Shown: positions 60,301 to 64,000 of the stretch, in pieces
Layout: each line of letters starts with the position of its first letter
Numbering within the stretch: position 1 is the stretch's first letter
Assembly: GCA_946558465.1 (NCBI GenBank)
Contig: CAMNTM010000008.1
Coordinates: forward strand, 62,001-126,000
DNA from: an uncultured Lachnospiraceae bacterium
Lineage (GTDB): Bacteria > Bacillota > Clostridia > Lachnospirales > Lachnospiraceae
Direction of reading: 5' to 3'
DNA length: 64,000 bases
Made by a program: the position numbers and the translations under genes
The notes under the pieces: generated by a model
The model's input: only the letters and a program-made list of their open reading frames with translations
What the model was told of the DNA's origin: nothing
The model's database searches: none

Positions 60301-60351
60301 TTGACAGAACAAATGTTTGCAGATATAATAAAACTATCGAACAAATGTTTT
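60301..60351 (+). promoter_or_regulatory. SOS promoter: perfect -35/-10 with two LexA boxes
   Basis: TTGACA (60301-60306), 17 bp, TATAAT (60324-60329). Box 1 GAACAAATGTTT (60307-60318) lies inside the spacer. Box 2 CGAACAAATGTTTT (60338-60351) covers the start site. Both match the Gram-positive LexA/DinR pattern GAACNNNNGTT(T/C), and the 12-nt cores are identical, spaced 32 bp (about three helical turns). Strong repression by LexA and induction by DNA damage are predicted. Confidence 0.85.
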
Positions 60352-60371
60352 TGGACTGTGAGGGGATACAG

Positions 60372-61706
60372 ATGGATATGCGGATAACAGAAGCTATGAC
60401 TGTGTATGATAAATTAAATATTCTGACAGATGCTGCCAAGTATGATGTCGCCTGTACTTCGAGCGGAACCTCTAGAAAAAGTGACGGTACGGGGATGGGC
60501 AGCTGTGAAAAGTCCGGGATATGTCACAGCTTTTCAGCAGACGGAAGGTGTATTTCTCTGCTTAAGATACTTTTTACGAATGAATGTATCTATGACTGTA
60601 AATATTGTATTAATCGAAGAAGCAACGATGTGGCAAGAGCCTCCTTTACTCCGGATGAGATATGTACGCTTACGATGGAATTTTACCGGAGGAATTACAT
60701 TGAGGGCTTGTTTTTAAGCTCCGGTATTCTGAAAAGCCCGGATTACACGATGGAGCTTATCTATGCAGCGCTCTATAAGCTGCGCATAGAGCATCATTTT
60801 CAAGGATATATCCATGTAAAGACGATTCCGGGAGCAAGTCCGGAGCTGGTGCACAAGACCGGATTTCTGGCGGATAGGATGAGTGTAAATCTGGAGCTTC
60901 CGACAGCAGAGAGTTTGAAGCTTCTGGCGCCCCACAAAACAAGAAAAAGTATTCTGGCTCCGATGCGTCTTGTACAGAACCGAAGAACTGAAAACCAGCA
61001 GGAGCTGGTATTGTACCGCAATGCGCCGAGGTTTGTCCCGGCGGGACAGAGCACGCAGATGATTATCGGGGCTACGCCGGAGACAGATTACCAGATTATA
61101 CAGGTGGCGGAGTCTCTCTATCAGAAGTTCGAACTAAAAAGAGTGTTTTATTCGGCATTTGTTCATGTCAATGAAGACAAGGCACTGCCGGCAAGAACAG
61201 ATGAGGGGCCGCCGCTTTTAAGGGAACACAGACTCTATCAGGCAGACTGGCTGCTCCGGTACTATCATTTTCAGGCGGACGAGCTTTTGTCGGAGGAGAA
61301 TCCTAATTTTAATGTTCTGCTGGACCCTAAATGTAACTGGGCGCTTAAGCATCTGGAGGAGTTTCCGGTGGAGATTAACCGGGCGGATTATAAGATGCTT
61401 CTTAGGGTTCCGGGGCTTGGCTATAAGTCGGCTGTCCGGATTGTAAAAGCGAGAAGGCTGGGCGTTTTGAATTTTGAGGATTTGAAAAAGATGGGAGTTG
61501 TATTGAAAAGGGCGATGTATTTTATCACCTGCAGCGGGAGGATGCTCTATCCGACAAAGATTGAGGAGGATTATATTACGAGAAATCTTTTGAATGTAAG
61601 AGAGAGGTTTCCGGAAGAGGTGCGGAATATGGGTTATAGGCAGCTGTCTCTTTTTGATGACGTAAGCTTTGGAGAAAATTTGAAAAAGGCTGTATCAGCA
61701 CACTAG
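60372..61706 (+). CDS. Putative DNA modification/repair radical SAM protein (TIGR03916-like)
   Basis: A 444-residue radical SAM protein. An N-terminal Cys-rich segment precedes the SAM/[4Fe-4S] motif CIYDCKYC (C-x3-C-x2-C, near residue 77), a partial TIM barrel and a C-terminal helix-hairpin-helix region (KMLLRVPGLGYKSAVRIV) of the DNA-binding type. ATG 60372 (GAGGGGA upstream) is used because the track start at 60345 lies inside LexA box 2. The adjacent partner gene and the SOS promoter support a role in DNA repair. The reaction is unknown. Confidence 0.9.
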   Translation: MDMRITEAMTVYDKLNILTDAAKYDVACTSSGTSRKSDGTGMGSCEKSGICHSFSADGRCISLLKILFTNECIYDCKYCINRRSNDVARASFTPDEICTLTMEFYRRNYIEGLFLSSGILKSPDYTMELIYAALYKLRIEHHFQGYIHVKTIPGASPELVHKTGFLADRMSVNLELPTAESLKLLAPHKTRKSILAPMRLVQNRRTENQQELVLYRNAPRFVPAGQSTQMIIGATPETDYQIIQVAESLYQKFELKRVFYSAFVHVNEDKALPARTDEGPPLLREHRLYQADWLLRYYHFQADELLSEENPNFNVLLDPKCNWALKHLEEFPVEINRADYKMLLRVPGLGYKSAVRIVKARRLGVLNFEDLKKMGVVLKRAMYFITCSGRMLYPTKIEEDYITRNLLNVRERFPEEVRNMGYRQLSLFDDVSFGENLKKAVSAH

Positions 61707-61754
61707 CGTGGTGTACCAGATATTGGCTTCAAGATTGGAAACGGGAGGGAGCAT

Positions 61755-62543
61755 GTGAAGACGATTTATGTGTGCAGTGATACTATAACAGGTATTTTTT
61801 CGGCTGTGTATGATGCGTGGAGGCAGGAGAAAAGTGAAGAGGAATGCAAAATTGCGGTCAAAGGCATGTTGGAGCAGGAATTATTCTGTGAGTATGAGGA
61901 GGTGGAGGAGACACAGAAGAAGGCGCAGGCGGTGGAGGTCCTTATTAAAAAGCATTTAGGGCGGAAAGCATACTGGGATATCTATCATGCTGCGCTTTCA
62001 GAAGCGCCGGAAAAGGGAACGGTGATTCTCGGAACAATGCTTGCAGCGAAGCAGCTTTCGGACAGCACAAGGATTATGGAGCATTTGAGTCATAAAAAGG
62101 TGGAGAGGGTATTTGAGCTGAGCAGAAGCGTGGGAGGCGAGGCGCACAGCTACAAAGGCTTTTTAAGATTTCGGGAGCTTGTAAATGGAGTGCTGTATTC
62201 GGAGATCGCACCTAAAAATCAGATACTTACCTGCCTGGCGCCTCATTTTGCAGACAGACTCCCGCTTGAAAATTGGATGATTTATGACAGAACCCACGGT
62301 GCGTTTGTGGTACATGAGGCAGAAAAGAAATGGGTGCTGGTCTTAGACGAGGGCTTTGACCGGTCAATGTCGCAGAATGTGTCTTTTAAGGAGCCGGAAT
62401 ATGCAAGGCTGTGGAAGAGCTTCTGCAGAACGATTGCCATAGAATCCAGAAAGAATTCTGCTTGTCAGCTTCAGCATCTGCCGCTCAGATATCGGAAAGA
62501 TATGCTGGAGTTTGGGACGAAGGAGGATACAGGGCATTGGTAA
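61755..62543 (+). CDS. Radical SAM-associated DNA metabolism protein (TIGR03915/DUF4130-like)
   Basis: A 262-residue protein with GTG start behind GGGAGGG. It has the family opening YVCSDTITGIFSAVYDAW and the conserved DRLPLENWMIYDRTHGAFVVHEA and KSFCRTIAIESRKN segments. Its homologues are almost always encoded next to the TIGR03916 radical SAM protein, as here (48-bp gap). Some homologues are fused to uracil-DNA-glycosylase-like domains, which suggests work on damaged DNA, but that fusion is absent here. It is probably co-induced from the LexA promoter. Confidence 0.88.
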   Translation: MKTIYVCSDTITGIFSAVYDAWRQEKSEEECKIAVKGMLEQELFCEYEEVEETQKKAQAVEVLIKKHLGRKAYWDIYHAALSEAPEKGTVILGTMLAAKQLSDSTRIMEHLSHKKVERVFELSRSVGGEAHSYKGFLRFRELVNGVLYSEIAPKNQILTCLAPHFADRLPLENWMIYDRTHGAFVVHEAEKKWVLVLDEGFDRSMSQNVSFKEPEYARLWKSFCRTIAIESRKNSACQLQHLPLRYRKDMLEFGTKEDTGHW

Positions 62544-62754: not shown

Positions 62755-64000
62755 ATGAATATAGAACAGCCTGTAGTCAGGATATCTGTACGAACTCTTG
62801 TAGAATTTGTACTTCGTGAGGGTGATATTGACAACCGGACAGCGGGGGCAGATAAGGATGCCATGCAGCTTGGAAGCAGGATACATCGGAGAATTCAGCG
62901 GCAGATGGGCGCAGATTACCAGGCAGAGGTTCCTTTAGGATATGAGCTTTTCTGCCGGGGCTTTACTCTCAGACTGGAAGGACGTGCGGACGGTATTATC
63001 CATGCGCCGGAGGGGATTGTTATTGATGAGATTAAGGGAGTGTTTAAGGAGCTTGAGACGCTTAGAGAGCCGGCAGCCGTTCATCTTGCCCAGGCGAGGT
63101 GCTATGCTTATATGTATGCTTCTAAGGAGGCGCTTGAGGAAATCGGAGTTCAGATGACCTACTGTAATATGGAGACAGAGGAAATAAAGCGTTTTCAGAG
63201 TGTTTATACTTTTAAGGAGCTGGAAGCCTGGTTTCTTGAGCTGGCAGGAAGATATGAAAAATGGGCGAGATATCAAATTGAGTGGAAGAAAAAGCGCAAC
63301 ATCTCGATTAAGGGAGTTGAGTTTCCTTTTTCGTATCGCGAAGGGCAGAAAGAGCTGGCCGCCTCGGTTTACCGGACAATTCTCAGGAAGAAGAAGCTTT
63401 TTATCCAGGCTCCGACCGGAGTGGGAAAGACGATCGCGACACTGTTCCCGGCGGTAAAGGCAGTGGGAGAGGGGCTTGGAGATAAGATATTTTATTTGAC
63501 TGCGAAGACGATTACCCGGACTGCGGCTTGTCAGGCATTTGATATTTTAAGGAAGCAGGCTCTGCGTATGAAGGTAATTATGCTGACTGCAAAGGAAAAA
63601 ATCTGCTTTTGCGAGGAGACAAACTGTAATCCGGATTACTGTCCGTATGCGAAGGGACATTATGACAGAGTGAATGATGCAGTCTATGAGCTTCTCACGA
63701 CATCAGATGAGATGAGCCGGCAGATTTTGGAGGAGCAGGCAGAAAAGTGGAAGGTCTGTCCTCATGAAATGAGCTTAGATGTGTCTTCCTGGGTAGATGC
63801 GGTCATCTGTGATTATAATTATGTGTTTGATCCAAATGCGCATCTGCGGAGATTTTTTGGAGAAGGAATAAAAGGAGAATATTTGTTTCTAGTCGATGAG
63901 GCACATAATCTGGTGGAGCGGGGAAGAGAGATGTACAGTGCGGATATCTGCAAGGAGGATTTTTTGAAGCTGAAACGGCGTGTACAGACTGAGGACAGGA
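62755..64000 (+). CDS. XPD/DinG-type Fe-S DNA helicase with N-terminal PD-(D/E)XK-like domain (partial)
   Basis: Open to the end of the window (415 codons seen). It is not in the ORF track because the stop lies outside. An N-terminal Cas4/RecB-like nuclease region has GRADGI (D79) and VIDEIKG (D91/E92-x-K94). A superfamily 2 helicase follows: QAPTGVGKT Walker A near 217-226, four cysteines of an XPD-type [4Fe-4S] domain (C284, C286, C291, C296) and a DEAH box (D381-H384). It starts at ATG 62755 behind AAGGGA. It fits a DNA-repair module with the two preceding genes. The C-terminal motor domain is cut off. Confidence 0.9.
   Translation, partial: MNIEQPVVRISVRTLVEFVLREGDIDNRTAGADKDAMQLGSRIHRRIQRQMGADYQAEVPLGYELFCRGFTLRLEGRADGIIHAPEGIVIDEIKGVFKELETLREPAAVHLAQARCYAYMYASKEALEEIGVQMTYCNMETEEIKRFQSVYTFKELEAWFLELAGRYEKWARYQIEWKKKRNISIKGVEFPFSYREGQKELAASVYRTILRKKKLFIQAPTGVGKTIATLFPAVKAVGEGLGDKIFYLTAKTITRTAACQAFDILRKQALRMKVIMLTAKEKICFCEETNCNPDYCPYAKGHYDRVNDAVYELLTTSDEMSRQILEEQAEKWKVCPHEMSLDVSSWVDAVICDYNYVFDPNAHLRRFFGEGIKGEYLFLVDEAHNLVERGREMYSADICKEDFLKLKRRVQTEDR

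Follow-up and report, generated by a model that had tools for sequence, protein, structure and literature searches.

The window analysed here is a stretch of 64,000 nucleotides from the genome of an uncultured Lachnospiraceae bacterium. Near its end lie a radical SAM/helix-hairpin-helix (HhH) gene of the TIGR03916 family, a TIGR03915 (DUF4130) gene and a helicase gene (Table 1). The locus raises the question whether the first two genes form an operon of the SOS response, and what the products of such an operon would do to DNA.

TIGR03916 is presumably the same family as COG4277. A UDG-COG4277 (COG1573-COG4277) operon is under LexA in Bacteroidetes (PMC8565304), and the same paper cites this SOS operon from Verrucomicrobia and Alphaproteobacteria. 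Regulation of splB by the SOS response is described in several species (PMC8565304), and DUF4130, the Pfam counterpart of TIGR03915, was associated with SplB-like radical SAM proteins and UDGs (PMC3765255). SOS control of the family is already known and is not first reported here, so the clostridial case adds a lineage. New in this work are the clostridial form free of UdgX, the near-perfect co-occurrence of the two genes, the QLSLF motif and three extra invariant cysteines. A literature search on TIGR03915 and TIGR03916 found nothing, and the main text of the C. difficile LexA paper contained none of the words "radical", "uracil" and "photolyase".

Table 1. Features of the locus, with positions in the window.
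Feature	Position	Strand	Evidence or remark
Sigma-A promoter TTGACA-N17-TATAAT	60301..60329	+	12/12 match to consensus; -35 TTGACA 60301-60306, -10 TATAAT 60324-60329, spacer 17 nt
Predicted LexA box 1, GAACAAATGTTT	60307..60318	+	Within promoter spacer; recA and lexA boxes of same genome alike
Predicted LexA box 2, GAACAAATGTTT	60339..60350	+	Immediately 3' of expected transcription start
Ribosome-binding site GAGGGG	60360..60365	+	Precedes likely start codon 60372; read from sequence
TIGR03916 radical SAM/HhH protein, 444 aa	60372..61706	+	NCBIfam 702 bits; PF04055, HHH_3; AlphaFold
Extra invariant cysteines C28, C51, C60 (and H52)	60453..60551	+	188/188 sequences having the region
CX3CX2C radical SAM cluster motif (C72, C76, C79)	60585..60608	+	Invariant in alignments
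Helix-hairpin-helix DNA-binding motif	61365..61493	+	PF12836
QLSLF, candidate beta sliding clamp binding motif	61641..61655	+	Low-confidence tail
TIGR03915/DUF4130 partner, GTG start	61755..62543	+	245 bits; PF13566
DinG/XPD-like helicase, Cas4-like N-terminal region (phrog_1706)	62755..64000, runs off window	+	Linked neighbour

Promoter and SOS control in the host genome

A sequence-only reading had described two identical 12-nt LexA-box cores in a perfect sigma-A promoter before the radical SAM gene, and we confirmed both the cores and the promoter. With transcription starting near 60336, box 2 spans about +4 to +15. Including their flanks, box 1 reads AGAACAAATGTTTG and box 2 reads CGAACAAATGTTTT, each with one mismatch to CGAAC-N4-GTTYG. 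The list of open reading frames also offers a start at ATG 60345; because this codon falls within box 2 and GAGGGG precedes ATG 60372, the gene probably starts at the latter.

The two sites might be coincidental and the operon outside LexA control, which we consider extremely improbable. Copies of the loose core GAACNNNNGTTY are to be expected by chance: the window has 3, against an expectation of 2.6. The exact 12-mer, in contrast, was present twice in the window and never in 100 shuffles, and both copies lie within one promoter at a spacing of 32 nt. In addition, the sites are kept across Clostridia and are replaced by lineage-matched ones in Proteobacteria, as described below.

The host's own regulon was sampled from pattern matches. 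The lexA gene is located at G000:C7:4307-4900 (G000 is the host genome), CGAACAAAAGTTCG lies between it and a divergent gene for a LysM protein, by our reading YneA-like, and recA has CGAACATTAGTTCG 35 nt upstream. Boxes of the CGAAC-N4-GTTCG type at recA and lexA indicate that the host LexA should see that type, and the operon promoter thus contains a box of the organism's own type. Judged from sequence, LexA control of the operon is close to certain, with LexA predicted to bind at the two boxes. The host genome also encodes a second LexA-like protein (G000:C5:70458-70823), a partial match under the LexA cut-off.

Conservation of LexA-type sites

The same reading had proposed a scan for LexA boxes upstream of TIGR03916 homologues, and the scan revealed them in most loci. 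TIGR03916 was above cut-off in 67 of 120 genomes of the same family. Searching from -250 to +60 relative to the assigned start, and counting related sequences that are not independent events, we found a box at 54 of 66 same-family loci (at least two boxes at 31; shuffle mean 1.1, maximum 5) and at 22 of 29 loci from other Clostridia (shuffles 0.4). Within the same-family set, 20,460 nt of upstream sequence gave 86 matches, whereas 80,565 nt from inside the genes gave 4. In a scan of every 4-nt gapped inverted repeat, with no prior choice of motif, AACA-2-TGTT ranked first and GAAC-4-GTTC second in the same-family set; AACA-2-TGTT also ranked first in the class set, where GAAC-4-GTTC was below the six-locus reporting limit. 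Named genome contigs, mostly of Clostridia, carried a box at 54 of 79 evaluable loci, including Paenibacillus and Desulfosporosinus. Roughly 20-30% of the sampled orthologues had no recognised box, and wrong start calls perhaps account for some of them.

Outside these lineages the site changes its form. Upstream of all 12 plasmid-borne orthologues from Alphaproteobacteria, 17 to 118 nt from the start (annotated or matched), lay GAAC-N7-GAAC, the reverse complement of the alphaproteobacterial LexA repeat GTTC-N7-GTTC (PMC8565304). The betaproteobacterium Caballeronia had CTGTATAAATATACAG, of the CTGT-N8-ACAG type, at -29. The type of site tracks the local LexA, and this is hard to explain unless SOS control is selected for. 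The boxes kept across Clostridia and the lineage-specific LexA sites in Proteobacteria together support the proposal that the pair is under damage-response control.

An Acinetobacter plasmid locus (L135) was also inspected; no LexA-type site was found in its upstream region, and an inverted repeat AAACGA...TCGTTT is situated just ahead of the start (in the 50 bases before 2989). To our knowledge, Acinetobacter has no LexA.

A role of the pair in the DNA damage response is likely. SOS control does not prove repair, since the SOS response also governs mutagenesis, the arrest of division and functions of mobile elements.

The radical SAM enzyme and its C-terminal motif

The first protein matched TIGR03916 over its full length (701.8 bits, cut-off 343.5). 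The PF04055 domain, the invariant CX3CX2C cysteines and the barrel fold of the AlphaFold model (pLDDT 81) place it in the radical SAM superfamily, and the folds nearest to the model were HydE, BioB, LipA and viperin. Because C28, C51, C60 and H52 are invariant besides C72, C76 and C79, the alignment makes a second cluster or a zinc site likely. Spore photoproduct lyase (SPL) was rejected as an identity: NCBIfam reported TIGR03916 alone, and no SPL was among the 50 best fold matches. SPL (SplB, COG1533) is likewise a radical SAM enzyme with a CX3CX2C cluster and acts on DNA, whereas TIGR03916 has the extra cysteines, the HhH domain, a clamp-type tail and a near-obligate partner, and matches no SPL model.

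Three genomes contained divergent TIGR03916-like proteins of about 310 bits, under the cut-off (G156:C1:164991-166058, G184:C27:1156-2223 and G212:C30:35230-36297), and no TIGR03915 match; these proteins are possibly a paralogous subfamily. In a Gemmatirosa protein (L229), the match had 38% identity across the core and left out the N-terminal cysteine region, and the tail contained a QLSLW motif.

QL[SD]LF is the classical beta-clamp motif. In the aligned TIGR03916 proteins the Q was invariant (195/195), and the following positions were mostly L/M/I, S, L/F/M and F. Of 183 tails, 126 had the strict motif, which did not occur outside the tails in 70,912 aa of these proteins. The tail around QLSLF had a pLDDT of about 44 in the AlphaFold model, which fits a Q-L-S/D-L-F type peptide that is disordered and accessible, and in Alphaproteobacteria the motif is usually the very C-terminus of the protein. 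From this motif, recruitment of TIGR03916 to the clamp is likely; a limited literature search found no earlier paper making the point. The clamp-binding Y-family polymerases and MutS share such a peptide in a flexible tail, whereas the catalytic domain of TIGR03916 is unrelated to theirs and its clamp binding is predicted from the motif.

The clamp motif, together with the label "predicted mutagenesis-related enzyme" given to DUF4130 (PMC3765255), would also fit an accessory of SOS mutagenesis, in which the pair aids translesion polymerases at the clamp and the radical SAM domain is structural or sensing. We regard this as very unlikely, as the radical SAM cluster cysteines and many polar residues are all invariant, which argues for catalysis.

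The partner protein and linked genes

The second protein matched TIGR03915 with 245.1 bits (cut-off 112.25) and DUF4130 with 3.6e-46. The two genes are adjacent with a gap of 48 nt, and no plus-strand terminator was found between them. Among 196 clostridial genomes, 62 had both genes, 5 and 1 had one of them alone, and 128 had neither (Fisher 7e-44, on four counts taken manually from two tables). Several of the genomes with one gene had it at a contig end, or had the partner under the cut-off.

Five residues (R138, F139, R168, R232 and E252) were kept in 52 of 52 TIGR03915 proteins, including the fusions with UdgX, and the conserved residues showed no metal-site pattern, which suggests that they bind DNA or the lesion. 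No recognisable PDB relative and no solved structure were found for TIGR03915. A DHH phosphoesterase fold was considered and rejected, the Foldseek matches being weak (best TM 0.28-0.31), with no DHH family found by Pfam in 40 members and no invariant Asp/His set.

Several side observations concern this family. TIGR03915-like proteins of about 60 bits, under the cut-off, were present in G177, G204, G254 and G277 (family f44), genomes in which TIGR03916 had no match. The N-terminal part of the partner (aa 3-93) matched the phage family phrog_6306, of unknown function, at 1.8e-9. A protein search of a phage collection matched 10 records, mostly unannotated faecal contigs, with two Acinetobacter records. 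As an anti-phage defence system the pair was rejected, PADLOC giving no match for either protein.

In 16 of 27 close loci, the DinG/XPD-like helicase gene follows the pair in the same orientation. From this recurring gene order, the helicase may belong to the repair set as its third component. We saw no separate LexA box for the helicase gene.

UdgX fusions and related systems

Among the partners examined, TIGR03915 stands alone in Clostridia, Bacteroidota and Acinetobacter, and is fused to UdgX in Alpha- and Betaproteobacteria. This locus does not have the fused version: the partner has no UdgX domain, and the best match in the host genome reached 130 bits against a cut-off of 189.95, by our reading a family-4-like UDG. 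TIGR03914 (UdgX) was above cut-off in none of the 196 clostridial genomes. A KRRIH, KRRLH or RKRLH loop was kept in 7 of 9 fusions; according to PMC10359453, a loop of that type holds the crosslinking histidine in UdgX, a protein whose role is given there as unknown.

These fusions, most of them with a KRRIH-type loop, and the unassigned role of UdgX raise the possibility that the pair removes or processes protein-DNA or abasic-site adducts, such as the covalent adducts of UdgX with abasic sites. We think it unlikely, as none of the clostridial genomes sampled has UdgX above cut-off beside the pair, and the partners examined from Bacteroidota and Acinetobacter lack the fusion.

Equally doubtful is a DNA modification function, by which the enzyme would add or alter a group on normal or new DNA under stress, for example to mark or protect it. 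The database name of TIGR03916, putative DNA modification/repair, leaves both options, PMC3765255 suggests that the associated enzymes might modify thymines, and a clamp tether would equally suit replication-coupled modification. However, a permanent modification would be less in keeping with LexA-type repression across lineages than a need conditional on damage. The linked helicase and UdgX point to damage handling, and the pair matched no defence model.

Compared with known systems, the COG1573-COG4277 operon is, like the one described here, a LexA-controlled two-gene operon with apparently the same radical SAM family; the clostridial form differs in its stand-alone TIGR03915, the lack of UdgX and the CGAAC-N4-GTTCG box type. 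The TIGR03915-UdgX systems, for example those of Thioclava, Azospirillum and Caballeronia, have the same enzyme, partner domain, upstream LexA-type site and clamp-type C-terminus, but their partner carries the additional UdgX domain.

Proposed function

We favour, as the probable reading, an SOS-induced operon for DNA repair or damage processing through clamp-tethered radical chemistry on a nucleotide. The sequences themselves show the promoter with its boxes, the LexA-type sites conserved across lineages, the coupling of the two genes, the invariant clamp-type motif and the radical SAM and HhH domains; LexA binding, clamp binding, a repair function, radical attack on DNA and a pyrimidine substrate are inferred.

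In such an operon, LexA on the two boxes would cover the promoter until RecA bound to single-stranded DNA prompts the repressor to cleave itself, and TIGR03916 and TIGR03915 would then be made together. The QLSLF peptide would tether TIGR03916 to the replication clamp while the HhH domain holds the DNA, and TIGR03915, via its invariant arginines, may recognise or present the damaged nucleotide at stalled forks; in Alpha- and Betaproteobacteria the uracil-capturing UdgX, fused to TIGR03915, would be part of this step. A 5'-deoxyadenosyl radical would take a hydrogen from the nucleotide, so that the lesion is reversed or made fit for excision repair or bypass. Radical repair of a nucleotide is our guess at the best chemical reading, and a pyrimidine-derived lesion our best guess at the substrate. 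The more specific proposal, that the pair performs clamp-tethered radical SAM lesion repair at stalled forks, outside the SPL family and with UdgX as an optional lesion-capture domain, is put forward tentatively.

If this proposal is true, UdgX would gain a cellular role. The pair is widespread and belongs to a small group of radical SAM systems for which DNA is the likely target. Three kinds of LexA-type site, near-obligate pairing and an invariant clamp-type motif make a vague annotation specifically testable.
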